Shown: positions 2,418-34,565 of the stretch, in pieces
Position numbering within the stretch: position 1 is the first letter of the stretch
How the letters are laid out: the number at the start of each line of letters is the position of its first letter
Source: Deltaproteobacteria bacterium
Lineage (GTDB): Bacteria; Desulfobacterota; GWC2-55-46; DRQE01
Assembly: GCA_016219105.1 (NCBI GenBank)
Contig: JACRCI010000047.1
Span: forward strand, 1 to 46,014
Direction of reading: 5' to 3'
Length of the DNA stretch: 46,014 bases
Notes under the pieces: generated by a model
Database searches by the model: none
The model's input: only the letters and a program-made list of their open reading frames with translations
What the model was told of the DNA's origin: nothing
Position numbers and translations under genes: made by a program

Positions 2418-2438
2418 CCAACCAGCCGTCCTCGACGG
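2418..2438 (-). repeat. 21-nt hairpin repeat unit (intergenic)
   Basis: On the minus strand the unit reads arm CCGTC, loop GAG, arm GACGG, tail CTGGTTGG. It lies between nhaD and the hemW promoter. Confidence 0.75.
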
Positions 2439-2446
2439 CCCATCAT

Positions 2447-2475
2447 TTACAACCCGCCGGATTATTTGGTATAAT
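2447..2475 (+). promoter_or_regulatory. Promoter for hemW
   Basis: TTACAA at 2447-2452 and a perfect TATAAT at 2470-2475 are 17 nt apart. Transcription would begin near 2482, about 77 nt before the hemW start. Confidence 0.55.
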
Positions 2476-2558
2476 CTTTCAAAGACCGTAAATGGGCGCA
2501 GACCTCGTAAGGAGCGTAGCGCCGCGCAGGCAAAGAAAACGGAAGAACTGAAAAGGCC

Positions 2559-3749
2559 TTGCTGAAAACATCCGGAAGACAAAAAAAGGACACCCTCGGC
2601 ATCTACGTCCACATACCCTTCTGCAAAAGGAAGTGCCCGTACTGCGATTTCAACTCGGTCGCGGCCGTCGGGGACGGCTGGATAGCCGTCGGAACGCCTG
2701 AAAAAGAGTACGCGGAAAGCGTGCTCATGGAGTTTTCCTCCATCGCTGAAAGGGAGGGGCTCGGGGAGCGGATACGCGCGGTCGAAACCCTGTATTTCGG
2801 CGGCGGCACCCCCTCCATTTTTTCACCTGATACGATAGCCCGCATCATCGGCGGGATACGCCGCGTAATCCCTCTCTCGGACAACGCCGAGATTACCCTT
2901 GAGGTGAATCCGGAAACCGTTGATGGAAAAAAACTCCGCGGCTTCAGGGACGCCGGTATAAACCGCCTGAGCATAGGCATCCAGTCTTTAAACCCAACGG
3001 AACTCAAAACCCTCGGCAGGCTCCACTCGGCTGAAAAGGCCGTGGAGGCCGTCGCGCTTTCAAGGGACGCCGGGTTTAAGAACATCGGGGTGGACATCAT
3101 GTTCGCCGTGCCGGGCCAGACGTTTCGGGGATGGGAAAAGACGCTCATTGAAATAACGGGGCTCGCTCCCGAGCATGTGTCAATATACGGGCTTACCGTT
3201 GAGAAAGGCACCCCCTACCACGGGTTATTGAAAAAAGGAGAGCTCGTGCTGCCGTCCGAAGGTCTCTACGCCGACATGTACCGCTGCGGCGCCAGGGTCA
3301 TGAAGGAAAACGGCTACGCGCGCTACGAGATATCGAACTTCGCTCTCGACGGCTTTGAATGCAGGCACAACATGAGATACTGGCTGGGAAAAGACTATAT
3401 AGGGCTTGGGGCAGGCGCCCATTCCTATCTGGGCCTAAGCGGCCAGGGACTGAGGTGGTGGAACGAGCCCTCCCCGGGCCGTTATATGGAGATGGCCGGG
3501 AAAGGGTTAAGCCCTTCGGCCGGCTCGGAGACGCTTAAGGTCGAGGAGGAGGCGACGGAAAGGATTATGCTGGGCCTGAGGCTTAAAGAGGGCATAAGGG
3601 AAAACGAATTCATCGAACGCTTCGGCTCGCCTCCGGCGGAGTTCATCCTGCGCTGGAAAGAGCTGAACGAGCTCGGGCTCATACGCGCCGAGGACGGCTT
3701 TATCGCCCTGACCCAGAAGGGCATACTTTTTTCAAACGAGGTCTTTTAG
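2559..3749 (+). CDS. hemW: HemW-type radical SAM protein (heme chaperone family, formerly coproporphyrinogen III oxidase-like)
   Basis: The protein has 396 residues. The radical SAM cluster motif CKRKCPYCDF has cysteines at 22, 26 and 29, followed by YFGGGTPS and the HemW-like stretches VNPETV and GIQSL, with a C-terminal HemN-type domain. HemW proteins bind heme and are thought to deliver it to respiratory enzymes; authentic HemN oxidases carry an extra N-terminal region that is absent here. The start is TTG 2559, with AAGG four bases upstream and no in-frame ATG before residue 54. After the cluster motif there is a short extra segment (GDGWIAVG) that coincides with a degenerate copy of the 21-nt hairpin repeat. 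Confidence 0.88.
   Translation: MLKTSGRQKKDTLGIYVHIPFCKRKCPYCDFNSVAAVGDGWIAVGTPEKEYAESVLMEFSSIAEREGLGERIRAVETLYFGGGTPSIFSPDTIARIIGGIRRVIPLSDNAEITLEVNPETVDGKKLRGFRDAGINRLSIGIQSLNPTELKTLGRLHSAEKAVEAVALSRDAGFKNIGVDIMFAVPGQTFRGWEKTLIEITGLAPEHVSIYGLTVEKGTPYHGLLKKGELVLPSEGLYADMYRCGARVMKENGYARYEISNFALDGFECRHNMRYWLGKDYIGLGAGAHSYLGLSGQGLRWWNEPSPGRYMEMAGKGLSPSAGSETLKVEEEATERIMLGLRLKEGIRENEFIERFGSPPAEFILRWKELNELGLIRAEDGFIALTQKGILFSNEVF
2665..2685 (+). repeat. Degenerate 21-nt hairpin repeat inside hemW
   Basis: Arm CCGTC, loop GGG, arm GACGG, then CTGG and a diverged end. The stem is perfect. It reads in a different frame from the copies in rarA and bioH, giving VGDGW. The match may be partly chance. 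Confidence 0.4.
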
Positions 3750-3803
3750 CGGACGGAGAAGGCCTCCGGCCTGGCGCGGCAAAAGGACAAAAACCTGATT
3801 TCC

Positions 3804-3832
3804 TTGACAACGGTTTTTCACGCTGGTATCTT
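3804..3832 (+). promoter_or_regulatory. Promoter for the hrcA-grpE-dnaJ operon
   Basis: TTGACA (3804-3809), a 17-nt spacer and TATCTT (3827-3832) form a housekeeping-type promoter, about 32 nt before hrcA. No CIRCE inverted repeat (TTAGCACTC and its partner GAGTGCTAA) is visible around it. Confidence 0.65.
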
Positions 3833-3864
3833 TCTTTAAAGAGCCGCATAAACGAGGAGGCGAC

Positions 3865-4902
3865 GTGACGACCCTCACGGAACGCGCGGAAAAGATACTC
3901 ATAGAGATAGTCAAGGTGTATATCTCGACGGCCGGGGCGGTAAGCTCCGGGAGCATCGCGAAGACCCGCCGCGTGGGCCTCAGCCCCGCCTCCGTACGAA
4001 ACGTGATGGCCGAGCTTGAACGTCAGGGCTACATCACCCGGCCGCACGCCTCCTCCGGAAGGGTGCCGACGGACAAAGGCTTCCGCCTGTATGTGGACAG
4101 CCTGCTTGAGGTCGAAGAGCCGCGCGAAGACGACAAACACCGCATAAGGGCCTGCTGCGAAAACACCCTTGTCTGCGATGGAATGGTGCGCGGCGCCACA
4201 AGGATGCTCTCCAGCATCACAAGCTGCGCCGGGTTTGTCCTCGTGCCGCGCAGGGCCGGGTTTTTGATAAGGCACGTACGGTTCCTCCCGGTGGACGACT
4301 CCTTCATACTCGTCGTCATCGTCTCAACCAACGGGATCGTCAACACAAGGCCGGTAAGAAGGGAAAAAGGGTTCGCCGGTATAGACCTTGAAAAGGCATC
4401 GAACTACCTGAACTCCTTTTCCGCCGGCCTTACGATGGAGGAACTGAGGGACAGGGTCATGGAGGAGATGGGGAAGGAAAGGAACCTCTACGACGGGCTC
4501 TTCAAGGCGGCGCTCCGGCTCGGCCTGATGATAGGGGAGACGGCCGCGAGTAACGGCGACGCCGAGGGCGACATATACGTCGAAGGCAGGGCGAACATAT
4601 TCGACCAGCCCGAATTCGCAATTGACATCGAGCGGATGAAGCGCGTATTCGCCGCCTTCGAGGAAAAAAGCCTGCTCGTCAGGATACTCGACGAGAGCAT
4701 CAAGGAGAGGGGCGTGCGCATCTCCATCGGCTCGGAGTGCGACACGAAGGGGTTCGAGGGGCTCAGCCTTGTCGCCGCCTCTTACGGAAAGGACGAATCT
4801 GCGCTTGGCACCGTCGGGGTCATCGGGCCTGTCAGGATGAACTATCCAAGGATTATCCCGCTTGTAAACTACGCCGCAGGACTCCTCACCGAAGCCCTTT
4901 AG
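3865..4902 (+). CDS. hrcA: Heat-inducible transcription repressor HrcA
   Basis: This 345-residue protein represses chaperone genes by binding CIRCE operators. An N-terminal winged helix (about 1-75) contains the family sequence SPASVRNVMAELE followed by HASSGRVPTDKGFRLYVD. A GAF-like and inserted dimerisation region follows, ending in VGVIGPVRMNY near the C-terminus. Start GTG 3865 has GAGGAGG seven bases upstream. It heads the set hrcA-grpE-dnaJ and is read from the TTGACA/TATCTT promoter. No CIRCE is visible in front of it, so autoregulation by the classical operator is not supported by this window. Confidence 0.95.
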   Translation: MTTLTERAEKILIEIVKVYISTAGAVSSGSIAKTRRVGLSPASVRNVMAELERQGYITRPHASSGRVPTDKGFRLYVDSLLEVEEPREDDKHRIRACCENTLVCDGMVRGATRMLSSITSCAGFVLVPRRAGFLIRHVRFLPVDDSFILVVIVSTNGIVNTRPVRREKGFAGIDLEKASNYLNSFSAGLTMEELRDRVMEEMGKERNLYDGLFKAALRLGLMIGETAASNGDAEGDIYVEGRANIFDQPEFAIDIERMKRVFAAFEEKSLLVRILDESIKERGVRISIGSECDTKGFEGLSLVAASYGKDESALGTVGVIGPVRMNYPRIIPLVNYAAGLLTEAL

Positions 4903-4950
4903 AACGCCGTCTTCTTAAAATTCTGGAGGAAAAAAGTCCAATCTCAAGAC

Positions 4951-5520
4951 ATGACGGGGTGCACGGATATGGCCGACGAAAAAAAGACAGAGGGGACGGA
5001 GGAAGGGAAAGAATCTCCTGAACAGGGCGCCGGGGCCGGAGAATCGGCCGTGGCCCGGCTGACGGAAGAGCTTGAGGCCAGGGCGAAAGAGGCCGCGGGA
5101 AACCATGACAAGTTCCTCAGGAAATGCGCCGACCTCGAAAACTACAAAAGGCGGATGGAAAAGGAACTCTCCTCGGTTGTTCAGTTCGCTAACGAAGACC
5201 TGATAAAGGAGATACTCCCGATAGTGGACAGCCTCGAAAGGGCGCTTGAGCACCGCGGGGAGGAGCCGGGGGAGGCGGCGGCCTCGTCCCTTATCGGGGG
5301 GGTCGATCTGACCCTCAGGAAGATGTCGGATATCCTCAAAAAGTTCGGGGTGGAGGAGATACGGGCCGAGGGCGGAAGGTTCGACCCCGCAAGGCACGAG
5401 GCGCTCTCCCACGAGGAAAAGGAAGGGTTTGAGAGCGGGGCGGTCATAAAGGAACTGCAAAAGGGTTATATCCTCAGGGACAGGCTCCTCAGGCCCTCGC
5501 TCGTTATAGTCGCAAAATAA
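4951..5520 (+). CDS. grpE: Nucleotide exchange factor GrpE
   Basis: GrpE releases ADP from DnaK. The protein has 189 residues: an acidic, disordered N-terminus, a long coiled coil (about 35-90, with LENYKRR) and a C-terminal beta domain with the signature-like segment FDPARHEAL and a terminal GYILRDRLLRPSLVIVAK-type ending. Two starts are possible, ATG 4951 and ATG 4969 (MADEKK). Neither has a well-placed ribosome site; GGAGG at 4924-4928 is 22 nt from the first. It lies between hrcA and dnaJ. A dnaK gene is not present in the window. Confidence 0.93.
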   Translation: MTGCTDMADEKKTEGTEEGKESPEQGAGAGESAVARLTEELEARAKEAAGNHDKFLRKCADLENYKRRMEKELSSVVQFANEDLIKEILPIVDSLERALEHRGEEPGEAAASSLIGGVDLTLRKMSDILKKFGVEEIRAEGGRFDPARHEALSHEEKEGFESGAVIKELQKGYILRDRLLRPSLVIVAK

Positions 5521-5598
5521 AACCAGGGGGAGGCGCCGGCTGGCACGCCTCGCGGCGCCGGCGGGTTGGCCGGGGGAGACCGAAGGGCCCGTAACGTT

Positions 5599-6702
5599 AT
5601 GTCAAAGGACTACTACAGCATACTCGGCGTAAGCCGCAACTCGACCGATGACGAGATAAAGCGGGCTTACAGAAGGCTCGCCCACATGTACCACCCGGAC
5701 AAGCACGCATCCGAGGGCGACAAGGAAGAAGCCGGGGAGAAGTTCAAGGAGATAAACGCGGCCTACGAGGTGCTTAAAAACCCTTCGAGGAGGGCGCAGT
5801 ACGACCGGTTCGGACAGGCCGGCGCCGGAGCGGACTTCGGCGGCGCGGCTGATTTCGGAGGGGACTTCGGGGATTTCTTCGGAGACATGTTCTCGGAGTT
5901 TTTCGGGGGCCGCAGGCGCCCCGGGCCTGAGGCGGGCGCGGACTTAAGATACGACCTCACGGTATCCTTCACCGAGGCGGCGTTCGGGACCACGAAAAAG
6001 ATCATCATCCCCAAGGTCGCTCATTGCAAGACCTGCCAGGGCCTCGGCGCCAGGCCCGGCACATCCCCCAAACGCTGCGGCCGATGCGGCGGCTCAGGCC
6101 AGGAAAGGTTCCAGCAGGGGATATTCAGGATTGCAAAGACATGCCCGGAGTGCCGCGGCGCCGGCGCGGTCATCGAGAACCCCTGCGCGGAGTGCCGCGG
6201 CGCCGGCGCGGTAAAGATCGAACACTCGCTTACGCTCAATATACCCGGCGGGGTGGATACGGGCAGCAAGCTCAGGGTGGCCGGCGAAGGCGCCTCAGGG
6301 ACGCGCGGAGGCCCGGAGGGGGACCTCTACGTGTTCATAAGCGTCGAACCCCATCCCATATTCAGGAGGGAGGAAGACGACGTTATATGCGAGGTGCCGA
6401 TAAGCTTCCCGCAGGCGGCCCTCGGGACCGAGATAGAAGTCCCCACGCTCGAAGGGCCCGTGAAGCTGAAGATACCGCCCGGGACGCAGCCGGGAAAGAT
6501 TTTCAGGCTCAAGGCAAAGGGCGTTGCGTCCCCTGGCGCGCCGCGGCGCGGAGACCATCTCGTTTACATAAGGATAGAAACGCCGGCGAAACTCAACATG
6601 AGGCAGAAGGAACTGATCGAGGAGTTCGCGCGGATAAGCAACGACGACGTGTTCCCCCATAAAAAAAGCTTCCTCGACAAGGTGAAGGAGATGTTCGGAT
6701 GA
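5599..6702 (+). CDS. dnaJ: Chaperone protein DnaJ
   Basis: This 367-residue type I Hsp40 stimulates DnaK ATPase and binds unfolded substrates. In order it has a J domain with the HPD tripeptide (YHPDKH), a G/F-rich linker, four CxxCxGxG zinc motifs (CKTCQGLG, CGRCGGSG, CPECRGAG, CAECRGAG) and the C-terminal substrate-binding domains. I chose ATG 5599 (MSKDYY), the usual DnaJ beginning; an upstream TTG at 5566 would add 11 residues. The last codons overlap the next gene by ATGA. Zinc motifs 3 and 4 share an identical 24-bp DNA stretch. Confidence 0.95.
   Translation: MSKDYYSILGVSRNSTDDEIKRAYRRLAHMYHPDKHASEGDKEEAGEKFKEINAAYEVLKNPSRRAQYDRFGQAGAGADFGGAADFGGDFGDFFGDMFSEFFGGRRRPGPEAGADLRYDLTVSFTEAAFGTTKKIIIPKVAHCKTCQGLGARPGTSPKRCGRCGGSGQERFQQGIFRIAKTCPECRGAGAVIENPCAECRGAGAVKIEHSLTLNIPGGVDTGSKLRVAGEGASGTRGGPEGDLYVFISVEPHPIFRREEDDVICEVPISFPQAALGTEIEVPTLEGPVKLKIPPGTQPGKIFRLKAKGVASPGAPRRGDHLVYIRIETPAKLNMRQKELIEEFARISNDDVFPHKKSFLDKVKEMFG
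6147..6212 (+). repeat. 24-bp direct duplication within dnaJ zinc motifs 3 and 4
   Basis: Positions 6147-6170 and 6189-6212 are identical and encode ECRGAGAV twice. Protein-level repetition is expected here. Perfect DNA identity suggests recent gene-internal conversion. Confidence 0.7.
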
Positions 6703-8348
6703 GACGCCGGATTCCTCCCTTCATCATCCCTTTCCTCATCGCCGCCGTCATGACGCAGGCGGCCCCGTGCCTCTCGGAGGATGCGGCTGGAAAGGCCCTT
6801 TTTACGGTATTGGACGAGGCGGAGAAAAACGCCCCGACGGACCGGACTATCGAAAAGATCGAGGGCTTCATCCGGAGCTACCCCCTCTCAAGCGTGACCG
6901 ACGAGGCCATCGAGAGGGTCGCGTCCATGCTCGTCCAGAAATCCGATTTCCGCGAGGCCGCCGTGTACTACCAGAGGCTTCTAATGGACTTTCCGGCGAG
7001 CCGCTACAAGATAGACGCCCTCTACGGACTCGGATACTGCCGGTACAGGCTGGGGGATGCGCGGGAGGCGAAGTCCTCCCTCGATGCGGTCGCGTCGAAC
7101 CCGGACGCCTCGGTGACGCAGAAGGTAAAGGCACGGAGAATCCTCGACACGATAAGATACGCCGAGGCCCCCGGCCGCGCCCGAAAAACCGCCATAGCCG
7201 CCGTGCTTCCGCTTAAAGGGGAATATTCGGCCTACGGCGAAAACACCCTGAGGGGGATACTGCTCGCCGCCGGTGTTTTCGGGAAGGGCACGGACATGGG
7301 CGTTGAGATACGGGTGGAAGACAGCGGGGAATCGGAAAGGGAGACCGAAAAGACCATTGAGAGGCTCGGCGCGGAAGAAAACGTGGTGGCCGCGGTCGGC
7401 CCGCTTTTGAGCTCGACCGCCACGGCGGCGGCGCGGGAGGCGCAGAAAAGGAAACTCCCGGTCATAGTCCTGTCGCAGAAGGAGGGCATACCCCAGACCG
7501 GGGACTACGTGTTCAGGAACTTCCTTACCCCGAAAGAACAGGCCATGACCGTGGCGGAATACGCCGCGAAGACCCTCGGCATAAGGAAATTCGCCGTGCT
7601 CTATCCCGAAAACTCCTACGGGATCGAGCTGGCCGGACATTTCATGGCGGCCGTTAAAGACCACGGCGGGCTTATAGTCTCGGAAATTAAGTATCAGCCG
7701 GGCACGAAGGACTTCAACTCCGAGATAAAGACGCTCTTCGGCATAAAGGTTAAAGAGGAACTCGTCGGCCGCAGGCGCGTTACCGAATACACGCCCACCG
7801 TGGACGTCGAGGCCCTCTATATACCCGACTATTATTCAACGGTCATCCAGATCGCCCCGTACCTCGCCTACCACAACATCAAAGACGTCCAGCTCCTCGG
7901 GTCAAACGGCTGGAACTCCCCGGAGCTTCTGAAACTCGCCGGAGATTACGTCGAGGGGGCCGTCTTCGTGGACGGGTTCTTCACGGCGAGCAGAAGGAAA
8001 GGCGCAAGCCTGTTCCGGGACATGTTCGTGAAGGCATACGGCAGCCCGCCGGGCATACTCGAGGCCGAGGCCTACGACTCCACGATGCTCATACTCTCGG
8101 CGCTTAAAGGCGGGGCCGTTGACCGCGGTGCCGTGAGGGCCTACCTGTCGGACACGGGCCAGTTCGAGGGGGCCACCGGCCGCATGAGATTCGACCCTGA
8201 CGGCGAGGCGGTAAAGGAGCTTTTCTTGCTGAAGGTCGTCAAAGGCGCCATAACGGAGGTGGAAAACCCCGGCGGCCAAAACACCCTCCCGGGCGCCACC
8301 CGGAGTACTCCAAAGACTACTCCAAGCATCGCTCCGGCGAGGCAGTAA
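6699..8348 (+). CDS. Secreted TPR-plus-periplasmic-binding (LpoA-like) protein
   Basis: This 549-residue protein starts with a signal peptide (about 1-26, IPPFIIPFLIAAVMTQA). TPR/outer-membrane-lipoprotein-like repeats occupy about 40-150 (AAVYYQRLLMDFPASRYKIDALYGLGYCRYRLGD). A type I periplasmic-binding fold covers about 165-520, including a VLPLKGEYSAYGENTLRG opening and SQKEGIPQTGDYVFRN. The order of domains resembles LpoA, the activator of penicillin-binding protein 1A, and Leu/Ile/Val-binding proteins. The role here is inference. It overlaps dnaJ by ATGA and so is probably co-transcribed with the chaperones. The C-terminus is a low-complexity PTT-rich tail. Confidence 0.75.
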   Translation: MRRRIPPFIIPFLIAAVMTQAAPCLSEDAAGKALFTVLDEAEKNAPTDRTIEKIEGFIRSYPLSSVTDEAIERVASMLVQKSDFREAAVYYQRLLMDFPASRYKIDALYGLGYCRYRLGDAREAKSSLDAVASNPDASVTQKVKARRILDTIRYAEAPGRARKTAIAAVLPLKGEYSAYGENTLRGILLAAGVFGKGTDMGVEIRVEDSGESERETEKTIERLGAEENVVAAVGPLLSSTATAAAREAQKRKLPVIVLSQKEGIPQTGDYVFRNFLTPKEQAMTVAEYAAKTLGIRKFAVLYPENSYGIELAGHFMAAVKDHGGLIVSEIKYQPGTKDFNSEIKTLFGIKVKEELVGRRRVTEYTPTVDVEALYIPDYYSTVIQIAPYLAYHNIKDVQLLGSNGWNSPELLKLAGDYVEGAVFVDGFFTASRRKGASLFRDMFVKAYGSPPGILEAEAYDSTMLILSALKGGAVDRGAVRAYLSDTGQFEGATGRMRFDPDGEAVKELFLLKVVKGAITEVENPGGQNTLPGATRSTPKTTPSIAPARQ

Positions 8349-8364
8349 AAGACACACTTACCAT

Positions 8365-8393
8365 TTGCAGATTTTTTCCTTTTAGGTTATACT
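8365..8393 (+). promoter_or_regulatory. Promoter for dksA-like gene, probably leaderless
   Basis: TTGCAG (8365-8370), a 17-nt spacer and TATACT (8388-8393). The start codon begins six bases after the -10 box, so transcription is expected to begin at or next to the ATG. There is no Shine-Dalgarno sequence. Confidence 0.6.
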
Positions 8394-8399
8394 GGATGG

Positions 8400-8765
8400 A
8401 TGAATAACGACAGACTTGAGCACTTCAGGGATATCCTTAATTCCACCCTCGAAGGGTTGCTCCAGGACGCAGAGCGCACCGTAAGCGGGATGAACAGAAC
8501 CACCGATGAGCACTTCCCGGACCCGACCGACCGGGCCTCTCACGAGACCGACAGGAATTTCGTTTTAAGGGTCAAGGACAGGGAAAGGAAACTCGTCGCC
8601 AAGGTTAAAGACGCCCTCAAGAGGATAGAGGACGGCACCTACGGCATCTGCGAGGAGTGCGGCGAGCCTATCTCCGAGAAAAGGCTCGCTGTCAGGCCGG
8701 TTACGACCTGCTGCGTTGAATGCAAGAAGGAAGAAGAGGAACTTGAGAGGCAAAGGGGCGCGTAA
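8400..8765 (+). CDS. DksA/TraR-family C4 zinc-finger protein
   Basis: This 121-residue protein belongs to the family that enters the RNA polymerase secondary channel and mediates the stringent response with ppGpp. A coiled-coil N-terminus carries the acidic tip motif DPTDRA (D41, D44, A46), matching DxxDxA of DksA. A zinc finger follows, with C84 and C87 (CEEC) paired with C105 and C108 (CVEC), ahead of a short helical end. Shorter than E. coli DksA (151) but usual for the group. It has its own promoter with no 5' leader. A perfect GCGCGTAA/TTACGCGC inverted repeat straddles its stop codon (8758-8780). Confidence 0.88.
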   Translation: MNNDRLEHFRDILNSTLEGLLQDAERTVSGMNRTTDEHFPDPTDRASHETDRNFVLRVKDRERKLVAKVKDALKRIEDGTYGICEECGEPISEKRLAVRPVTTCCVECKKEEEELERQRGA

Positions 8766-8780
8766 CCTGACTTTACGCGC
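8758..8780. other. Palindrome across the dksA-like stop codon
   Basis: GCGCGTAA and TTACGCGC form an 8-bp stem with a 7-nt loop. No T-run follows on either strand, so it is at most a stability hairpin. Confidence 0.4.
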
Positions 8781-8854
8781 TTGCGGCGGCATTTATGCCC
8801 CATGGCCCCGCTAAACCCGCCGAGGCCCAGTGACCTGTCGTGTCCTCATCCATG

Positions 8855-8875
8855 CCCGCACTCCGTCCCCGACGG
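8855..8875 (-). repeat. Degenerate 21-nt hairpin repeat (intergenic)
   Basis: On the minus strand: arm CCGTC, loop GGG, arm GACGG, tail AGTGCGGG. The stem is intact and the tail has diverged. The rest of the dksA-galT gap (8781-8918) holds nothing else I can name. Confidence 0.35.
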
Positions 8876-8918
8876 CCCGGCGGCCGGCTCAAAAAACAGG
8901 AAAGGCGTTTAAAACACC

Positions 8919-9923: not shown

Positions 9924-9960
9924 TCCCGCGGTGCGGGCTTAATTCCCCGACGTCATAACC

Positions 9961-23151: not shown

Positions 23152-23291
23152 TGAACGGAATGCCCGCCGCAATCCCTCCCCTTAAGGGGAGGGTCAAGGC
23201 GGGCTATACAAACGACAACTTCCTTAACCGTCGAAGAATCTCCGCCATCTATGCCTGCCCCGTACTTGATACGGGGGCGGAGTTCTTCAAT
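23152..23291 (-). repeat. Two-hairpin dispersed repeat, copy B (140 bp), upstream of tatB
   Basis: Inverted near-identical copy of 377-515, with the same two hairpins (CCCGTATCAAGTACGGG-bearing and CCCTCCCC/GGGGAGGG-bearing). On the minus strand it points towards tatB, the same orientation relative to the gene as copy A has to nhaD. Its outer edge abuts the TTGACG box of the divergent deacetylase promoter. Confidence 0.8.
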
Positions 23292-23319
23292 TGACGCGCC
23301 GGAGGAAAAATGGTAAAGT
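23291..23319 (+). promoter_or_regulatory. Promoter for the first polysaccharide deacetylase, probably leaderless
   Basis: TTGACG (23291-23296), a 17-nt spacer and TAAAGT (23314-23319), then six bases to ATG 23326. A GGAGG inside the spacer faces an ATG at 23310 in another frame and would be outside the transcript. Confidence 0.6.
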
Positions 23320-24432: not shown

Positions 24433-24453
24433 CCATCCAGCCGGCCATGCCGG
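24433..24453 (-). repeat. 21-nt hairpin repeat unit between the deacetylase gene and resB
   Basis: Minus strand: arm CCGGC, loop ATG, arm GCCGG, tail CTGGATGG. It occupies most of the 33-bp gap between two convergent genes. Confidence 0.7.
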
Positions 24454-24456
24454 AGA

Positions 24457-25538: not shown

Positions 25539-25559
25539 CGGAAGTGGCCGGCTGGTGGG
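25539..25559 (+). repeat. 21-nt hairpin repeat unit upstream of psiE
   Basis: Right arm GCCGG and tail CTGGTGGG are perfect, the left arm is mutated (CGGAA). It directly adjoins the resB -35 box. The rest of the resB-psiE gap (25560-25700) holds only a weak similar stretch near 25600 and no gene. Confidence 0.6.
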
Positions 25560-26393: not shown

Positions 26394-27398
26394 ATGAGTT
26401 GCGGACCAAAGAAAATATCATCCCTCTTTCTCTCGGCCGCGCTTGTTTTTTTGCTCGCCGCGCCTGCCGGGTCGTATGCGGCCGCGGCAATATCCGCTTA
26501 CAGAGGTATCTTCAAACCCTTCAACTTAAGCGACGGCAAATTCAGGATAGCCATACGGCAATTCAACCGCAAGGGGAAACAGGAACTGCTTACGGTGGAC
26601 CCCTCCACGTTCGAGACCTTTGTTGAGGACGCCTCGGGCGTTGATTTTTCAAAGGCCGGTCAACCGGCGAGGCCGGCTGGTGGGCCGTCGAGGACGGCTG
26701 GCGGATATGAAAAAACCCTCAACGCCTCCCCTTTCATAAAGGCCCTCACGAGATACTCCGCCCCGCCCGTAAGGCTTCAGAACCACGGAATAACAAAGGC
26801 GGAAAACACGCGGGGAGGCGTTTTCCTCACCGTTGACCTGTGCCCGTCCAAAAGGCCGTTCGATAGGGACATGTTCCTGGCCGCAATTGAATTTTCAGGC
26901 GATAAAATCCCAGCTCCAATGGCCATTGCAATAACCGGGGCGTGGATAAAGACGCATAAAGGGGAACTTACCTGGATTTTGGAGCAGGTCAAGGCAAGGA
27001 AACTTGACGTTACGTGGATTAACCACAGCTATTCCCATCCCTATTCTGGCAAGGGAAAACCCCTGACTGAGGATTTCCTCCTGACCAGGGGGGTTGACTT
27101 TGAAAAAGAGGTTCTGGACAACGAATCCCTGATGCTTGATTCCGGCATAACCCCCTCGCCTTTTTTCCGCTTCCCGGGCCTTGCCTCGGACGGACGGACG
27201 ATGAAAAAACTCAAGGAACTGTCGCTTATCCCGGTTGGCGCGGACGCGTGGCTTGCGAAGGGGGAAACGCCCTCGGACGGGAGCATCATACTCGTGCACG
27301 GCAACGGCAACGAGCCGCGTGGCATAGAGAAACTTCTGGAGTTTTACAAAAGGGAGAAGGGGAGGCTTGAATTACTGCCGGTCAAAGACGCGTTTTGA
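26394..27398 (+). CDS. Secreted polysaccharide deacetylase-like protein
   Basis: The 334-residue protein has a signal peptide (about 1-29, ISSLFLSAALVFLLAAPAGSYA). A NodB-like domain follows from about 145: LTVDLCPSKRPFDRDMF, WINHSYSHPYSG with the metal-binding His pair, FFRFPGLASDGRTMKKLKEL, and SIILVHGNGNEPRG. The D-D motif is reduced to TVDLCP, so the catalytic metal site may be altered. Residues 91-104 are PARPAGG plus PSRTAGG, the product of two tandem 21-nt hairpin repeats in frame. ATG 26394 precedes the signal peptide directly; GTG 26376 is an alternative. It converges with tldD. Confidence 0.8.
   Translation: MSCGPKKISSLFLSAALVFLLAAPAGSYAAAAISAYRGIFKPFNLSDGKFRIAIRQFNRKGKQELLTVDPSTFETFVEDASGVDFSKAGQPARPAGGPSRTAGGYEKTLNASPFIKALTRYSAPPVRLQNHGITKAENTRGGVFLTVDLCPSKRPFDRDMFLAAIEFSGDKIPAPMAIAITGAWIKTHKGELTWILEQVKARKLDVTWINHSYSHPYSGKGKPLTEDFLLTRGVDFEKEVLDNESLMLDSGITPSPFFRFPGLASDGRTMKKLKELSLIPVGADAWLAKGETPSDGSIILVHGNGNEPRGIEKLLEFYKREKGRLELLPVKDAF
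26664..26705 (+). repeat. Two tandem 21-nt hairpin repeats in frame inside the second deacetylase gene
   Basis: Unit 1 (26664-26684): arm CCGGC, loop GAG, arm GCCGG, tail CTGGTGGG, read as PARPAGG. Unit 2 (26685-26705): arm CCGTC, loop GAG, arm GACGG, tail CTGGCGGA, read as PSRTAGG. The two stems differ by compensating changes. Confidence 0.85.
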
Positions 27399-27412
27399 AC
27401 CTTGTGTTTTAG

Positions 27413-28807: not shown

Positions 28808-28830
28808 TGCGCGCCTCCGTAAACTAAAAG

Positions 28831-28859
28831 AGTATAACAGCGGCGGAAGGCCGCGTCAA
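28831..28859 (-). promoter_or_regulatory. Promoter for tldD
   Basis: Minus strand: TTGACG (28854-28859), a 17-nt spacer, TATACT (28831-28836). Unlike the leaderless set it has a leader of about 20 nt with ACGGAGG. Confidence 0.65.
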
Positions 28860-28869
28860 GAGAGAGGGG

Positions 28870-28890
28870 CCGGCGTGGCCGGGTGGTAGC
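28870..28890 (+). repeat. 21-nt hairpin repeat unit between tldD and rarA
   Basis: Arm CCGGC, loop GTG, arm GCCGG, tail GTGGTAGC. The stem is perfect. It lies in the divergent promoter region. Confidence 0.65.
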
Positions 28891-28911
28891 CCGGCGCTTT
28901 CCATATCCATA

Positions 28912-28941
28912 TTGCCATTACACTCCTATCTGTTGTAATAT
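28912..28941 (+). promoter_or_regulatory. Promoter for rarA, probably leaderless
   Basis: TTGCCA (28912-28917), an 18-nt spacer and TAATAT (28936-28941). Six bases separate the -10 box from ATG 28948; there is no ribosome site. Confidence 0.6.
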
Positions 28942-28947
28942 CTATCC

Positions 28948-30261
28948 ATGGAGCTTTTTAAAAAGATACCGGCGTGGCCGGCTGGTGGGCATGGAAGGAA
29001 CCCGCATAGGGCCAAGGCATCCCCCCTGTCCCCTTTAGCCGACAGGATGAGGCCCGCGGACCTCGGGGAATTTTTCGGGCAGGGGCACCTCGTTTCAGAG
29101 GGAAAATTCCTGAGGAGGGCCATAGAAAAAGGAGAGGTCCCCTCCATCATCCTGTGGGGCCCTCCGGGATGCGGCAAAACCACCCTTGCCCGCATCATCG
29201 CCGAGAGCTCTGGCTCGGACTTCACGGCGTTCTCGGCGGTCATGTCCGGGGTAAAGGAGATACGGGAGGTAATAAAACTCGCGTGGCGGAACCTGGGCCT
29301 CGGCAAAAAGACGGTCCTCTTCGTGGACGAAATCCACCGCTTCAACAGGGCTCAGCAGGACGCCTTCCTCCACCACGTCGAGGACGGCACCTTGACGCTC
29401 ATCGGCGCGACGACCGAAAACCCCTCTTTCGAGGTAAACGCCCCGCTCCTTTCAAGGTGCAAGGTCTTTGTCCTGAACGCGCTCGCATCCGAGGACATAA
29501 AGACGCTCGTGGAGAGGGCATTGAAGGACACGGAGCGCGGCCTGGGCAGGCTCAACGCAAAGGCGGACCAGGATGCCCTTGAGTTTATCGCCGGGTTTTC
29601 CCACGGGGACGCAAGAGAGGCCCTCAATACGCTCGAAAATTCCTGCATGATGGCCCCGGCGGACGCGGGCGGCGCGAGGGTCATAACCGTTGACATCGTA
29701 AAAGAGGCGATGCAGAAAAAGGCCCTCCTCTACGATAAGGGCGGGGAGGAACACTATAACGTCATATCGGCGTTCATAAAAAGCATGAGGGGTTCGGACC
29801 CCGACGCGGCCCTCTACTGGCTCGCGCGCATGGTCGAGGCAGGCGAGGACCCGCTCTTCATAGCGAGACGCATGGTGATATTCTCATCCGAGGACATAGG
29901 GAACGCGGACCCCGCGGCCCTCTCGGTCGCCGTCGCGGTAAAGGAGGCCGTTCATTTCGTGGGCATGCCCGAGGGCTTTATCCCCCTGGCGCAGGGTGCT
30001 GCGTATCTGGCGACGGCCCCCAAATCCAACGCGTCATACGCGGCGTATCTCAGGGCAAAGGAGGACGTCGTCGGGAAAGGGGCGCTCCCCGTTCCGCTCC
30101 ACCTGAGGAACGCGCCGACCAGGCTGATGAAGGACCTCGGCTACGGAAAAGACTACAAATACCCGCACAACTACGAGGGCTCGAAGGTGGACGAGGCCTA
30201 CCTGCCCGCTGAGCTCAAGGGAAAAAAATACTACACGCCGCCGGAGGGAAAAAAACAATGA
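28948..30261 (+). CDS. rarA: Replication-associated recombination protein RarA (MgsA) AAA+ ATPase
   Basis: RarA acts at stalled replication forks. The 437-residue protein has PLADRMRPADLGEFFGQ at 29-45, Walker A GPPGCGKTTL (71-80), Walker B LFVDEIHRFN (D127, E128), sensor 1 GATTENPSF, and the C-terminal tetramerisation region with VIFSSEDIGNADP and PLHLRNAPTRLMKDLGYGKDYKYPH. An N-terminal extension of about 20 residues includes PAWPAGG (8-14), the product of an in-frame 21-nt hairpin repeat. The stop overlaps the ACT gene as ATGA. Confidence 0.96.
   Translation: MELFKKIPAWPAGGHGRNPHRAKASPLSPLADRMRPADLGEFFGQGHLVSEGKFLRRAIEKGEVPSIILWGPPGCGKTTLARIIAESSGSDFTAFSAVMSGVKEIREVIKLAWRNLGLGKKTVLFVDEIHRFNRAQQDAFLHHVEDGTLTLIGATTENPSFEVNAPLLSRCKVFVLNALASEDIKTLVERALKDTERGLGRLNAKADQDALEFIAGFSHGDAREALNTLENSCMMAPADAGGARVITVDIVKEAMQKKALLYDKGGEEHYNVISAFIKSMRGSDPDAALYWLARMVEAGEDPLFIARRMVIFSSEDIGNADPAALSVAVAVKEAVHFVGMPEGFIPLAQGAAYLATAPKSNASYAAYLRAKEDVVGKGALPVPLHLRNAPTRLMKDLGYGKDYKYPHNYEGSKVDEAYLPAELKGKKYYTPPEGKKQ
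28969..28989 (+). repeat. 21-nt hairpin repeat in frame at the rarA N-terminus
   Basis: Arm CCGGC, loop GTG, arm GCCGG, tail CTGGTGGG: a perfect unit read as PAWPAGG (residues 8-14). It is 22 nt after the start codon, so on a leaderless message it would form a hairpin close to the 5' end. Confidence 0.85.
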
Positions 30262-30797
30262 AAAGGTTCGCCCTTACCGCGATAGGCGCCGACACGCCCG
30301 GCATAGTGGCCGGCATCACCAGTGTCCTCTTTGAATACGGCTGCAACATCGAGGACTCGAGCATGACGAGGCTCGAGGAGGAGTTCTCGGTCATCCTGAT
30401 AATGACAACGGCCGATGACATTAAAACGGCGGAGCTTGAGAAGGAAATCAAGGAGATGGAGAGGGGCATGGGCCTTGAAATCCACTTCAAGGAAATTGGA
30501 GAAAAACCGCTCCGGAAAGAACGCGCTTCAACGCACATGGTCACCGTATCGGGCTATGACAGGCCGGGGATAGTCTATAAGACGGCCGACCTTTTGGCCG
30601 GATGCGGCATAAACATAACCGACCTCACGACAAGGATGCTTCACGGCCACGGGAGGAGCATCTACATAATGCTCATGGAGGTTTCCCTGCCAAAAACGCT
30701 CGACGGCGCGGCAGTGGCGGCGTCGCTTAAAACCCTCGGCGACGGCATGGGCGTAAAAATAGAGATGAAACCGATAGAGACGCACGAGGCGCTCTGA
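30258..30797 (+). CDS. Tandem ACT-domain protein (GcvR-like)
   Basis: The 179-residue protein consists of two ACT domains: the first begins FALTAIGADTPGIVAGITSVLFEYGCNIEDSSM and the second HMVTVSGYDRPGIVYKTADLLAGCGINITDL. ACT pairs bind amino acids; GcvR, the best-known relative, represses the glycine cleavage system by binding GcvA. No gcv genes are near, so the ligand and partner are unknown. ATG 30258 overlaps the rarA stop (ATGA), so the two are co-translated. Confidence 0.85.
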   Translation: MKRFALTAIGADTPGIVAGITSVLFEYGCNIEDSSMTRLEEEFSVILIMTTADDIKTAELEKEIKEMERGMGLEIHFKEIGEKPLRKERASTHMVTVSGYDRPGIVYKTADLLAGCGINITDLTTRMLHGHGRSIYIMLMEVSLPKTLDGAAVAASLKTLGDGMGVKIEMKPIETHEAL

Positions 30798-30833
30798 GGC
30801 CGCGGACCACGTCCCTCAATCCGTCAAATCAAT

Positions 30834-31322
30834 ATGCCGGCATTAAAAATCCTCCAGTACCCGGACCCCGTTCTCAAGGAAAAATCTTTAGAGGTAACGG
30901 CCGTATCCGAGGGGCTTAAAGACCTTATCCGCGACCTCGTGGACACGCTCCGCTCAGGCCCTGGCGTGGGTCTTGCGGCGCCCCAGGTCGGGATACTGAA
31001 ACGGATAATCGTCGTTGACGTAACGTCCAGGGCCGCGGGGGGTGGGCTCATCATACTTATAAACCCGGTGATTACGGCGTCAAAAGGCTCAAAGACCGTA
31101 AGGGAGGGGTGCCTCTCCATTCCAGAATACACGGCTGACGTAAAAAGGGCGGAAGATGTTATCGTGGAGGGGCTGGACGAAGAGGGCGGGGCAGTTAAAA
31201 TCGCCTCGACCGGACTCGAGGCGATAGCGCTCCAGCACGAGATAGACCACCTCGACGGCGTCCTGTTCATAGACAGGATAGAGGGCGTAAAGGGGCTTTT
31301 TAAAAGAAAGATAAGATTGTAG
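30834..31322 (+). CDS. def: Peptide deformylase
   Basis: The enzyme removes the N-formyl group from nascent proteins. The 162-residue protein shows all three motifs: GVGLAAPQ (44-51), EGCLS (91-95, metal ligand C93) and QHEIDH (134-139, ligands H135 and H139, catalytic E136). It follows the ACT gene by 36 bp and has no ribosome site. The usual partner fmt is not in the window. Confidence 0.95.
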   Translation: MPALKILQYPDPVLKEKSLEVTAVSEGLKDLIRDLVDTLRSGPGVGLAAPQVGILKRIIVVDVTSRAAGGGLIILINPVITASKGSKTVREGCLSIPEYTADVKRAEDVIVEGLDEEGGAVKIASTGLEAIALQHEIDHLDGVLFIDRIEGVKGLFKRKIRL

Positions 31323-31419
31323 CAGTTTGCGGAAAAACTCGTTCAGCAGCCTGCTAAATCGTAACACTGGATAACCTATCAGAAGCAATAATAGTGGTCA
31401 ATTTAAAAATCCGCCTTTA

Positions 31420-31450
31420 TTGTCAACCTTTGAAAATAACAGGTTGACAA
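31420..31450 (+). promoter_or_regulatory. Biotin operator (BirA box) in front of the bio operon
   Basis: TTGTCAACC (31420-31428) and GGTTGACAA (31442-31450) form a perfect 9-bp inverted repeat with a 13-nt spacer. The half-sites match the known BirA consensus family (TTGTAAACC/GGTTTACAA) in the variant with C and G at the fourth and sixth positions. The spacer is slightly shorter than the usual 14-16. The right half-site contains the -35 box of the bioB promoter, so bound BirA would block it. Confidence 0.8.
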
Positions 31451-31472
31451 TGTCCGCCTTCCATGTTATTGA
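31444..31472 (+). promoter_or_regulatory. bioB promoter, -35 inside the BirA operator
   Basis: TTGACA (31444-31449), a 17-nt spacer and TATTGA (31467-31472). ATG 31481 starts eight bases later, so the message has little or no leader. The in-frame ATG at 31463 lies upstream of the expected start and is excluded. Confidence 0.6.
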
Positions 31473-31480
31473 GAAATACC

Positions 31481-32470
31481 ATGAACGACATCTCAAAAGC
31501 GCTTAAAAAAGCTGAGGAAAAGGCCCTAAGCGGCATCGGCCTATGTCATGAGGACGCGCTCCGGTTCAGCGATATCCCCGAAGACCGGATATTCGAGATA
31601 TTACCCTATTCGGACAGGATACGGCGCCGCTTCAAGGGGGTGGAGGTAAACCTGTGCTCGATAGTCAACGCAAAGAGCGGCCTGTGCAGGGAGGACTGCT
31701 CGTTCTGCGGCCAGTCAATAAAATACTCAACCGGCATAAACGCCTACCCCATGATAGAGGCAGAGGAAATAGTGTCCAGCGCGCTACGGGCGGAAAAATC
31801 CGGGGCAAGGGAATTTTCGATAGTGACGAGCGGGACAAAGATAGAAAAGAAGAGCGACGTCTCAACGCTTAAAAAGGCCATTTCAGGGATAAAGGAGACC
31901 GGCCGCCTTGAGACCTGCGCATCCCTCGGCATAATGAAAAGGGAAACGCTTGAAGAGCTTAAAGACGCGGGGCTTGAGAGCTACCACCATAACCTCGAAA
32001 CGTCCCGGAGTTTTTTTCCGAACGTCTGCACCACGCACGGCTACGACGAGGACGTTGCCACGGTCAGGGCCGCCGGGGAACTCGGCCTTCACGTCTGCTC
32101 CGGCGGCATATTCGGCCTCGGCGAGGGATGGAAAGACCGGGTCGAGCTTGCCGGAACGCTGAGGGACCTCGACGTGGATTCCGTCCCCATAAACTTCTTA
32201 AACCCGCGGCCAGGCACGCCGCTTGAAAACGCGAGGAACTTGACGCCCCTGGAGTGCCTCAAGATAATAGCGCTTTTCAGGTTCATGCTGCCGTCCAAGG
32301 ACATAATAGTCTGCGGCGGAAGGGATGTGAATCTGCGCGATATGCAGTCGCTCATATTCGCCGCAGGAGCAAACGGCATGATGGTGGGGGATTACCTTAC
32401 GACAAAGGGGAGGCCCCCGGCGGACGACTTGAGGATGCTCGAAGACCTCGGACTTAAACCTAAGGCATGA
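31481..32470 (+). CDS. bioB: Biotin synthase
   Basis: This radical SAM enzyme inserts sulfur into dethiobiotin. In the 329-residue protein the [4Fe-4S] motif CREDCSFC has C69, C73 and C76, followed by YHHNLETS, the [2Fe-2S]-type ligand region and GGRDVNLRDMQ with the conserved arginine. Start ATG 31481 is chosen from the promoter position. It is first in bioBFHCAD and controlled by the BirA box. A 59-bp inverted repeat separates it from bioF. Confidence 0.96.
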   Translation: MNDISKALKKAEEKALSGIGLCHEDALRFSDIPEDRIFEILPYSDRIRRRFKGVEVNLCSIVNAKSGLCREDCSFCGQSIKYSTGINAYPMIEAEEIVSSALRAEKSGAREFSIVTSGTKIEKKSDVSTLKKAISGIKETGRLETCASLGIMKRETLEELKDAGLESYHHNLETSRSFFPNVCTTHGYDEDVATVRAAGELGLHVCSGGIFGLGEGWKDRVELAGTLRDLDVDSVPINFLNPRPGTPLENARNLTPLECLKIIALFRFMLPSKDIIVCGGRDVNLRDMQSLIFAAGANGMMVGDYLTTKGRPPADDLRMLEDLGLKPKA

Positions 32471-32479
32471 CCTTACTCT

Positions 32480-32538
32480 GTCACCCTGAACCTTGTTTCA
32501 GGGTCTCTATTTGGATCCTGAAATGAATTCAGGATGAC
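32480..32538. repeat. Inverted-repeat element inside the bio operon (bioB-bioF gap)
   Basis: GTCACCCTGAA at the left faces TTCAGGATGAC at the right, with CCTTGTTTCAGGGTCT and GATCCTGAAATGAATTC between. This CCTGAA...TTCAGG hairpin type is a known dispersed palindrome in many bacteria. It would form a strong hairpin in the operon message between the first and second cistron. Confidence 0.7.
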
Positions 32539-32550
32539 AAAAAGTCTGAC

Positions 32551-33705
32551 ATGAATTCAGCGATAGAAAAGACCCTTAAAAAGATCAAGGACGAAGGACT
32601 TTTCCGCTCCCTCACCCTCATAGAGGGGCCGCAGTCTCCGCGCGTAAGGATCAGCGGAAAAGAGGTTCTGTGTCTCTGCTCCAACGATTACCTGGGGCTT
32701 GCGAACCACCCGGAGGTCAAAGAGGCGGCGATAAAAGCGACGGAAAGATACGGCGCCGGGGCAGGCGCGTCGAGGCTCACCTCCGGCGCGATGGAGCCGC
32801 ACAGGGAGCTTGAGGACAGGATAAAAAGATTCAAAAAGGCCGAGGCCGCCCTGGTCTTCAATTCCGGCTGGCACGCCAATACCGGCATTATCCCGGCCAT
32901 GGCCGGCAGGGGCGCGGACGTCTTCTCCGACAGGCTCAATCACGCGTCCATCATAGACGGCTCGATCCTCGGCAGGGCGAACCTCAGGCGATACCCGCAC
33001 GGCGACGTAAACGCGCTTGAAGGCCTTCTCGGAAGATCAACGGCCGAACGGAAACTCATCGTGACGGACGGCGTTTTCAGCATGGACGGCGACGTCGCGC
33101 CGCTCAAGGAGATTATAGCCCTTGCCGAAAGGCATGGCGCCATGGTCTTTCTCGACGACGCGCACGCCGTCGGATGTATCGGTAAAAACGGAAGGGGCAC
33201 CCTCGAACACCTCGGCATCGAACGCCGCCAGTCTGTAATCGAGGCCGGAACGCTCGGAAAGGCCTTCGGGTCATACGGCGCGTTCGTAACCGGCGGCAGG
33301 GAACTCATGGAACTTCTCATGAACAGGGCGCGCAGTTTCATCTACTCGACCGCCCTGCCGCCGGGCGTATGCGCTGCAAGCTCAAAGGCGATAGAGATAG
33401 CCGGAAGGGAGCCTCAGAGGAGAAAAAGACTTTCGGAAAACGCCGCCTTCATGAGGGACGGGCTGAGAAAAAACGGCTTCGACACGCTCAAAAGCTCGAC
33501 CCACATAATCCCGCTTGTAACGGGCAAAGCTCAAAGGACAATGGAGATAACGGGAAGGCTCCTCGACAGCGGCGTTTTCGTGCAGGGCATCCGTCCGCCG
33601 ACAGTGCCGCAGGGGACATCCAGACTCAGGATAACGGTCAGCTCGGAGCATAAACCCGCGGACCTCGAACGCGCGATCGAGGTCATCGCAAGGGCCTGCG
33701 AATGA
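32551..33705 (+). CDS. bioF: 8-amino-7-oxononanoate synthase
   Basis: This PLP enzyme condenses pimeloyl thioester with L-alanine. The 384-residue protein has the alpha-oxoamine synthase features CSNDYLGLANHP, DRLNHASIIDG, FLDDAHAVG (D202, H205) and the PLP lysine K237 in GTLGKAFGSYGAF. The start ATG 32551 has only a weak AGGATG 18 bases upstream, inside the preceding palindrome. The stop overlaps bioH as ATGA. Confidence 0.95.
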   Translation: MNSAIEKTLKKIKDEGLFRSLTLIEGPQSPRVRISGKEVLCLCSNDYLGLANHPEVKEAAIKATERYGAGAGASRLTSGAMEPHRELEDRIKRFKKAEAALVFNSGWHANTGIIPAMAGRGADVFSDRLNHASIIDGSILGRANLRRYPHGDVNALEGLLGRSTAERKLIVTDGVFSMDGDVAPLKEIIALAERHGAMVFLDDAHAVGCIGKNGRGTLEHLGIERRQSVIEAGTLGKAFGSYGAFVTGGRELMELLMNRARSFIYSTALPPGVCAASSKAIEIAGREPQRRKRLSENAAFMRDGLRKNGFDTLKSSTHIIPLVTGKAQRTMEITGRLLDSGVFVQGIRPPTVPQGTSRLRITVSSEHKPADLERAIEVIARACE

Positions 33706-34565
33706 AGCCGCCGGCCAATCAGCCGTCCACGACGGCCCACCAGCCGCTCTCAGCGGCCAAGAAAATCTTTGTCCACGGATGGGCGACCGACAGCCGCGTC
33801 TGGCGGGAATTCATAAAAGACCCGTCGAGGACGGCTGGCGGGCCGGCGAGGCCGGCTGGTGGGGGCGAAGACGCCGTCGCCGTAAATCTTCCCGGTCATG
33901 GCGACTGGCCCTCCGGTCATGACAATCAGCCAGCCGGCGGGAAAAAATGGGACTCGCCGACATTCGCGCCTGCGATTGAAGCGCTCCTCGGCTCTGCGCC
34001 GGACTCTATCGGCATAGGCTGGTCGCTCGGGGGGGAGATACTGATGCACCTCGCCTCAACCAACGCCGTAAGGTTCCGGGGGCTTATCCTTGTCTCCACC
34101 ACGCCGTCTTTCATCGAGCGCGACGGCTTTCCGTGGGCACAGAAAAAGGCCCGCGTCAAAAAAATGCTCGCGGACATGGGGAAAAACCCGGCCGAGACGC
34201 TCAAGAGGTTTTATGCCCTGAACTTCACGGAAGAGGAGTTCCTCACCGCCAGGGCAAAGGGTTTCTTAAAACTCTACTCAGGGCATCCTCAGAGCGCCCT
34301 TAATTATGACTATGACGGACTGACGTTGGCCCTTAAGGCGCTCATGGACGCGGACCTGAGGGATGGGCTGAGAAAAATCACCGTGCCCACGCTTATCATG
34401 CACGGCTCACTGGACAATGTCTGCCCGATAGGGGCGGCCCATTATCTGAAGGAGAATATCACCGGGGCTACGCTCAGGATATTTGAAGGCGCGGGACACG
34501 CGCCATTTATCACCCGCCCGGAGGAGTTCAGTAAAGCCGTGTCCGGTTTTACGGAGGGGATATGA
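33702..34565 (+). CDS. bioH: Pimeloyl-ACP methyl ester esterase BioH with hairpin-repeat insertions
   Basis: BioH removes the methyl ester that BioC adds, ending pimeloyl synthesis. The 287-residue alpha/beta hydrolase has nucleophile S108 in GIGWSLGGE, D238 in HGSLDNVCP and H266 in GAGHAP. The start of the core is FVHGWATDSRVWREF. Two insertions derive from 21-nt repeats: residues 6-19 (NQPSTTAHQPLSAA, reverse orientation) and 41-54 (PSRTAGG plus PARPAGG). A fifth, partial copy gives QPAGG near 76-80. They sit before the first strand and in the loop before VNLPGHG, surface positions that could tolerate them. Both ends overlap neighbours by ATGA. Confidence 0.88.
   Translation: MKPPANQPSTTAHQPLSAAKKIFVHGWATDSRVWREFIKDPSRTAGGPARPAGGGEDAVAVNLPGHGDWPSGHDNQPAGGKKWDSPTFAPAIEALLGSAPDSIGIGWSLGGEILMHLASTNAVRFRGLILVSTTPSFIERDGFPWAQKKARVKKMLADMGKNPAETLKRFYALNFTEEEFLTARAKGFLKLYSGHPQSALNYDYDGLTLALKALMDADLRDGLRKITVPTLIMHGSLDNVCPIGAAHYLKENITGATLRIFEGAGHAPFITRPEEFSKAVSGFTEGI
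33715..33756 (-). repeat. Two tandem 21-nt hairpin repeats, reverse orientation, at the bioH N-terminus
   Basis: Minus strand, 33736-33756: arm CCGCT, loop GAG, arm AGCGG, tail CTGGTGGG. 33715-33735: arm CCGTC, loop GTG, arm GACGG, tail CTGATTGG. The CCGCT/AGCGG stem is a third compensated variant. Confidence 0.8.
33822..33863 (+). repeat. Two tandem 21-nt hairpin repeats in frame inside bioH
   Basis: Unit 1 (33822-33842): arms CCGTC/GACGG, loop GAG, tail CTGGCGGG, read PSRTAGG. Unit 2 (33843-33863): arms CCGGC/GCCGG, loop GAG, tail CTGGTGGG, read PARPAGG. This is the same pair as in the second deacetylase gene but in the opposite order. Confidence 0.85.
33924..33941 (-). repeat. Partial hairpin repeat in bioH
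   Basis: AATCAGCC matches the tail end of the copy at 33715, followed by AGCCGGCGGG; the left half is missing. Confidence 0.35.

Follow-up and report, generated by a model that had tools for sequence, protein, structure and literature searches.

A 21-nt palindromic unit, dispersed in hundreds of copies through the genome of an uncultured Deltaproteobacteria bacterium (GenBank assembly GCA_016219105.1), is probably a mobile element. Its copying would involve a single-stranded hairpin, which enters immediately 5′ of CCG as complete units that preserve the reading frame and is predicted to be translated as heptapeptides in host proteins. We give this reading a probability of about 0.6. The unit was noticed in contig JACRCI010000047.1, and the whole stretch analysed there (positions 1 to 46,014 of the forward strand; 46,014 nucleotides) is called the window. 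The unit has a high copy number restricted to this genome and a co-varying stem, is inserted in frame in genes with under-use of the arginine-rich frames, and forms stacks of unlike units, which decay with a polarity and are enriched for CCG at their 3′ flank. Copying would depend on an enzyme acting in trans on the hairpin, and the unit probably ranks among the smallest mobile elements so far known, growing in stacks.

The genome-wide consensus consists of an arm (CCGKC), a loop (GAG), a second arm (GMCGG) and a tail, CTGGTTGG, which takes the place of the tail CTGGTGGG given in the initial annotation of the window. Read on the other strand, the unit begins with an unpaired tag, CCAACCAG, at its 5′ end, followed by the hairpin, whose last letters are CGG. 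The host genome is a 1.87-Mb draft in 137 contigs, 95% complete and Thermodesulfobacteriota-like as judged from protein matches; the protein relatives with names are mostly from 'Deltaproteobacteria' and Thermodesulfobacteriota metagenome-assembled genomes. A search allowing two mismatches from the two-type consensus CCGKCGAGGMCGGCTGGTTGG gave 318 copies in it (control, 0), and two versions of the consensus gave 249 and 321 copies within three mismatches over the whole draft (reversed control, 3 each time). A covariance model search, in which 150 of 3047 candidates were scored, gave at least 201 matches at E ≤1. The initial annotation would have been refuted by few or no further copies in the genome, and the three-mismatch counts show the opposite. 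They are spread over dozens of the 137 contigs, and the clustering at 23–34 kb that had been remarked upon is only a local feature of the window. For unit counts, a 521-kb sample was composed of 40 stretches around known copies and the window. At a score of at least 11 it contains 306 non-overlapping units (reversed control, 17), and at a score of at least 13, 244 units (reversed control, 0), the latter cut-off giving 0 in 573 kb of G005, a relative from the same family. As 180 of the 321 genome matches fall inside the sample, the whole-genome total is estimated at about 546 units.

Among the genomes searched, a set of units of this kind is restricted to this one, and relatives have only isolated near-matches. 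Eight relatives from the same family have no units. Among 58 relatives searched at three mismatches, four have one match each and the others none, and among 63 genomes of the class searched at two mismatches, matches occur only in the window's genome and in G042, a genome of the same order (two matches). A sample of 394 other genomes of the phylum includes 27 with one or two matches at two mismatches, two being the maximum (reversed controls, 0–1 per genome, with 10 in one genome). The exact GGC-type consensus has five single matches, in unrelated taxa, none of them rickettsial, in genome_contigs (84,980 species, one genome each, with the unit's own genome possibly omitted). A virus origin was considered and set aside, as viral_contigs gave six single matches only, plasmid and phage record collections not being searched. 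G042 was likewise rejected as a second carrier. It has three units on the contigs that were read (C41 and C60), two in tandem at L132:1549-1590 and one at L133:8681-8701. Both contigs have ends 99–100% identical to repeats at contig ends of the window's genome (G000), and the contamination of G042, 6%, is the highest among the genomes listed; the units may therefore be mis-binned, or an insertion sequence may be shared.

Covariation of the stem was analysed in 184 copies of the sample, which were collected with the outer two stem pairs and part of the tail fixed and the three inner pairs left free. The inner three pairs are all Watson–Crick in 154 of these copies, with ten fully paired arm types, and the middle pair is Watson–Crick in 159 as against 81 expected from column composition, so that compensated changes exceed chance, as had been anticipated. 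Two subfamilies, GGC/GCC and GTC/GAC, make up 136 of the 184 copies, and the covariation therefore reflects few independent events, mostly the descent of these two subfamilies. Units with mixed arms also occur (GTC/GCC, 10; GGC/GAC, 3). The earlier suggestion that a structured RNA or DNA is either selected or copied is borne out with respect to copying. Its argument from the stem is weakened by the predominance of the two subfamilies and gains something from the eight further arm types that are fully paired. Copy counts and stem pairing together support a real dispersed hairpin repeat with co-varying arms that is copied as a unit.

Where do the units lie? A simple gene finder predicted 498 genes in the sample (87% coding). 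In predicted genes there are 192 of the 306 units, in all six frames and both orientations, with 109 between genes and 5 at edges; the sample was picked for copies, and this in-gene share is not a genome-wide rate. Ninety-five genes carry units. Many copies are in-frame insertions in core genes relative to orthologues, and the initial annotation had missed this main point, that most copies are in-frame gene insertions. When the 95 genes were compared with the sampled part of G005, 39 were matched, yielding 45 aligned entries (44 distinct positions), 36 of which have five or more gap residues opposite the unit. Of 27 clusters anchored on both sides, 24 have at least five extra residues (random windows, 11%), and in 9 the excess is exactly 7 residues per unit. 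The inserts are predicted to add seven amino acids per copy to host proteins.

Two hosts illustrate this. The BioH-like protein encoded in the window has 287 residues, most listed relatives having about 245–270, and contains two 14-residue stretches, each of two units, without counterpart in the 12 relatives to which it was aligned, two of these being without the N-terminus. Removal of both stretches leaves exactly the spacing of P0002, as counted by hand. In the AlphaFold model (mean predicted local distance difference test score, 88.5), the hydrolase core is confident, and confidence drops at the inserts, near a third, irregular insertion and in one other loop. That third insertion (33895-33950) adds about 11 residues with a repeated CCGGTCATG and traces of the unit. 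MnmG has 701 residues, most of 119 others listed having 612–645; nine units score in it, eight of them at sites that are gapped or variable in relatives. Outside the window, 29 of 30 unit-bearing proteins scanned belong to a Pfam family, the individual insertions in these Pfam-named hosts not each being compared with a relative. They include GlnE, a DnaB-like helicase, a poly(A)-polymerase/CCA-type enzyme, MnmE, QueH, FtsX, MnmG, a MutS2-like protein, an EngA-like GTPase, a NuoG-like protein, a Mur ligase, arginyl-tRNA synthetase, UvrC, TrmD, QueC, UvrD and HPPK; hosts in the window include the HemN-like and BioH-like genes.

The frames in which the units are read are not used evenly. When each of 142 in-gene arrays is counted once, the sense frames are occupied 26, 39 and 10 times and the antisense frames 6, 22 and 39 times. 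The two arginine-rich frames (RRGRLVG and PTSRPRR, each with three arginines) thus account for 16 of 142 arrays as against one third expected (p = 1.9e-9). Chance look-alikes are also uneven (352 of 1156 in these two frames), which leaves the bias standing but makes its null and its size only approximate. The same under-use is seen in 152 high-confidence in-gene units (10 and 6). Sense frame 2 is common in the look-alikes (231 of 1156) and rare in real arrays (10 of 142), whereas antisense frame 0 is scarce in look-alikes and arrays alike (121 of 1156 and 6 of 142), which makes its part of the bias less certain. Under-use of arginine frames is the outcome expected from translation and selection against three added arginines. 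We infer that the bias acts through protein and that inserts survive mainly in tolerant loops. Freedom from stop codons in all six frames was discarded as a sign of selection, since shuffled units of equal composition are stop-free every time.

The units also stack: 59 arrays comprise between two and five of them, head to tail, with 80 same-direction neighbour pairs in exact 21-nt steps. Arm type is shared in 21 of the 80 pairs, about 23 being expected from the two main types, and neighbours that differ in this way favour repeated insertion at a single site over slippage. The less decayed unit is the 5′ one in 42 arrays and the 3′ one in 7, with 10 equal (p = 3.6e-7); the polarity (5′:3′:equal) is 29:4:5 within genes and 13:3:5 elsewhere. 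CCG opens 41 of 98 unit-unlike 3′ flanks of arrays (genome, 2.8%), and a weaker preference is seen on the other side, where GG closes 25 of 123 unit-unlike 5′ flanks (genome, 8.7%). At the fourth flank position the base does not depend on unit type (19/10/17/14), and a target-site duplication beyond CCG was rejected on this ground.

How could a hairpin of this size be inserted so exactly? The chemistry of IS200/IS605 elements and REP (repetitive extragenic palindromic) transposases is the natural model. On the other strand, the unit is often preceded by CGG, carries the tag and the hairpin, and closes with CGG. An HUH/REP-transposase-like reaction would insert the unit 3′ of CGG, and each insertion would recreate the target at the end of the new copy, which could explain stacking and perhaps polarity. 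A hairpin-recognising enzyme acting at CGG would leave exact units, no longer duplication and unlike neighbours.

Several observations weigh against this reading. The expected enzyme is not seen: the Y1 transposase domain (PF01797) of a REP-associated transposase, which the initial annotation had proposed to look for, has no match in the assembly, while PF01797 is matched in 5 of 14 control genomes, nor were TnpB-like (PF07282) and reverse transcriptase (PF00078, RVT_1) domains found in the assembly, other transposase families not being searched. The draft is 95% complete, and other repeats, about 140 bp long, occur at several of its contig ends, so that a transposase may have been lost in assembly. 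One-ended growth agrees with the mechanism but does not strictly follow from it, because all junctions within a stack offer the same target. The enrichment of CCG could in part consist of remains of older units. Neighbours are slightly more alike than random pairs (17.1 vs 16.4 of 21 positions), and 6 neighbour pairs are identical as against about 1 expected, from which it follows that some local duplication occurs. The 17 control matches reach the score of 11, the cut-off behind the 306 units, and native sequence can pass for a unit: the MnmG unit at residue 405 is common to relatives, and 3 of the 27 aligned clusters are native look-alikes or not insertions. To these is added the unevenness of the look-alikes described above.

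Copying might proceed through an RNA intermediate, the unit being transcribed as a small structured RNA that returns to the genome by reverse transcription or recombination; a route of this kind has been proposed for small dispersed repeats of cyanobacteria. The co-varying stem, the exact unit boundaries and the occurrence in both orientations and all frames would suit this route, but no RVT_1 domain was found in the assembly and the units in the window have no Rfam match, and we consider it unlikely. A regulatory RNA was also considered and rejected: the Rfam matches in the window amount to one tRNA, with none in 26500-26900 at E 1.

Tandem-repeat dynamics would dispense with a dedicated transposition enzyme. 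A GC-rich hairpin could slip and duplicate in replication and spread by recombination, and template switching in the hairpin could correct one arm from the other and so match the arms. The exact 21-nt steps, the small excess of identical neighbours and the mixed-arm units point in this direction, as does folding, in which a five-unit stack is better than shuffles (z = −3.0) and single units less so (−1.0 and −1.8). Against it, neighbours usually differ in arm type, and slippage cannot explain how lone units came to lie at unrelated positions in dozens of genes; as a full account it seems improbable to us, though some local duplication does occur.

The unit might instead be a functional motif kept by selection, such as a terminator, an RNA-stability element, or a protein-binding or uptake site. 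Its high copy number, its conserved hairpin and a 2.8-fold intergenic excess (109 of the 306 units fall in the 13% of DNA between genes) could be taken to suggest so. This is very unlikely, however, given the 192 units within genes in both orientations, their absence from the eight family relatives and the visible decay along stacks. In addition, 76 intergenic units lie in tandem gaps, 19 in divergent and 6 in convergent ones, about the share of intergenic DNA in each class, so there is no terminator-like preference. Programmed bypassing, in which in-gene units would be skipped by the ribosome or removed to give proteins without the peptide, has a precedent in mitochondrial byp elements and might be suggested by a hairpin within conserved enzymes, but is hardly credible, as the under-use of arginine frames fits a peptide that is made rather than skipped.

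Returning to insertion by a hairpin-recognising enzyme, a bolder version of it can be entertained tentatively, at rather less than an even chance: the unit would be the smallest translated mobile element, a seven-codon 21-nt hairpin that an enzyme inserts 5′ of CCG, recreating its target, so that stacks are built from one end. Core genes would be open to it because the length is a multiple of three and no frame has a stop codon. If the reading of the unit as a mobile element is right, a 21-nt element has, in an estimated 550 or so copies, altered loops of numerous core enzymes within a single lineage, providing a natural experiment on the insertion tolerance of proteins. In-frame palindromic elements would then extend beyond the groups in which they were found described, and the lower size limit of mobile elements would drop. 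With so many copies and with stacks that are polar, the way in which the unit is copied can be tested, and each stack may be an ordered record of insertions.

In the window itself, all 11 sites of the initial annotation carry the described sequence on one strand or the other, and its three arm types (CCGGC/GCCGG, CCGTC/GACGG and CCGCT/AGCGG) are all present. Ten of the 11 have five paired stem positions, as claimed for good copies; the remaining one, intergenic at 25539..25559 (+), is decayed, with the 3′ arm and tail retained, the 5′ arm gone and two of five pairs left. A twelfth copy, absent from that list, lies at 2665..2685 (+) within the hemN-like gene (open reading frame 2559-3749, +), reads AVGDGWI and faces a 7-residue gap in the G005 relative. 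At five mismatches or fewer from the consensus, the window has 13 matches, with 1 for each of two reversed-pattern controls. The other intergenic units are a CCGTC/GACGG type at 2418..2438 (−), identical to the GTC-type consensus, a CCGGC/GCCGG type at 24433..24453 (−), confirmed by site check and stem pairing, and a unit with a changed tail at 28870..28890 (+), confirmed by site check. A predicted gene at 26394-27398 (+), in which no Pfam family was found, contains a two-unit array, confirmed by site check and frame, of 26664..26684 (+), reading PARPAGG, and 26685..26705 (+), which has the other stem type and reads PSRTAGG. The N-terminus of an MgsA-like AAA+ ATPase gene (28948-30261, +) has a unit at 28969..28989 (+) reading PAWPAGG. 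In the BioH-like esterase gene (33702-34565, +), the N-terminal array comprises 33715..33735 (−), antisense to the gene, and 33736..33756 (−), of the CCGCT/AGCGG type, and the second array comprises 33822..33842 (+), reading PSRTAGG, and 33843..33863 (+), reading PARPAGG; each pair is an exact 14-residue insertion relative to P0002.

Other repeats accompany the unit in this genome. A repeat of about 142 bp with an internal palindrome has two copies, 95% identical, in the window (374-515, +; 23152-23295, −), and the same self-comparison revealed further repeats near 140 bp in length, among them those at L041:1209-1359 and L057:11391-11540 and at several contig ends. A contig-end repeat with a doubled AAAAGAGGACATTTCTATTTTGGC (L043:1236-1368, L061:1-141, L060:2-140, L059:2-140 and L048:9979-10118) resembles what we presume, as a guess, to be an insertion sequence end collapsed in assembly. 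The 14-mer CGAGATTGCTTCGC is a further dispersed motif, with 20 copies in the 521 kb, and has a hairpin-like companion, TTGCGGCGAAGCAA, with 10 copies.

With regard to known systems, the initial annotation held that no named family fits and that the likeness to REP elements is one of style only. This mostly stands: the anatomy is REP-like, GTAG and CGTC tags are absent and there is no Y1 domain; it had left unnamed the closest precedents, which are small dispersed repeats (SDRs), intragenic tagged REPs and Rickettsia palindromic elements (RPEs). The SDRs described in Nostoc by Elhai and colleagues in 2008 are reportedly 21–27 nt long, with compensatory stem changes and self-insertion, confined to one group and thought to be mobile. 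A 21-nt dispersed hairpin with compensatory changes fits this definition, whereas the sequences and contexts of SDRs are cyanobacterial. We know of no in-frame colonisation of core genes with a frame bias among SDRs.

Small dispersed repeats also receive a mention in PMC3116915. RPEs are about 150 bp long and lie in frame in many unrelated genes (PMC10969869); two of them, RPE-4 and RPE-6, belong to the CGTC REPs, for which no dedicated transposase is said to exist (PMC3733652). The 21-nt unit shares with them a palindrome inserted in frame in unrelated genes. By description rather than by sequence, it differs in size, RPEs being of about 150 bp or REP-like with stems of 8–9 bp and the unit having 21 nt and a 5-bp stem, and in stacking in polar tandem and belonging to another phylum. 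GTAG- and CGTC-tagged REPs are small hairpins that carry an unpaired tag on one side, and some lie within open reading frames of several species, including uvr and tRNA-modification genes, DNA-repair genes being prominent; most REPs are intergenic, and CGTC elements are mainly head-to-head dimers, grouped ones being rare outside Neisseriae and Wolbachia (PMC3733652). The unit resembles them in having a small hairpin and an unpaired terminal tag and in its presence in open reading frames. Its tag, however, is neither GTAG nor CGTC, its stem has 5 bp, and it is mostly intragenic (192 of 306) and stacked head to tail, whereas REPs are mostly extragenic and often in inverted pairs. PARCEL coding repeats are palindromic DNA encoding a tandem peptide (PMC2996958), in that case a 25-residue amphipathic domain in open reading frames without assigned function, unlike seven residues dispersed in conserved enzymes. 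As for miniature inverted-repeat transposable elements, no target-site duplication longer than CCG is found at the units. Among the open-access papers listed, titles and abstract openings yielded no description of this 21-nt unit. What is distinctive here is the combination of a length of 21 nt, a predominance inside genes accompanied by a frame bias, and stacks of unlike units that are polar and adjoin CCG.

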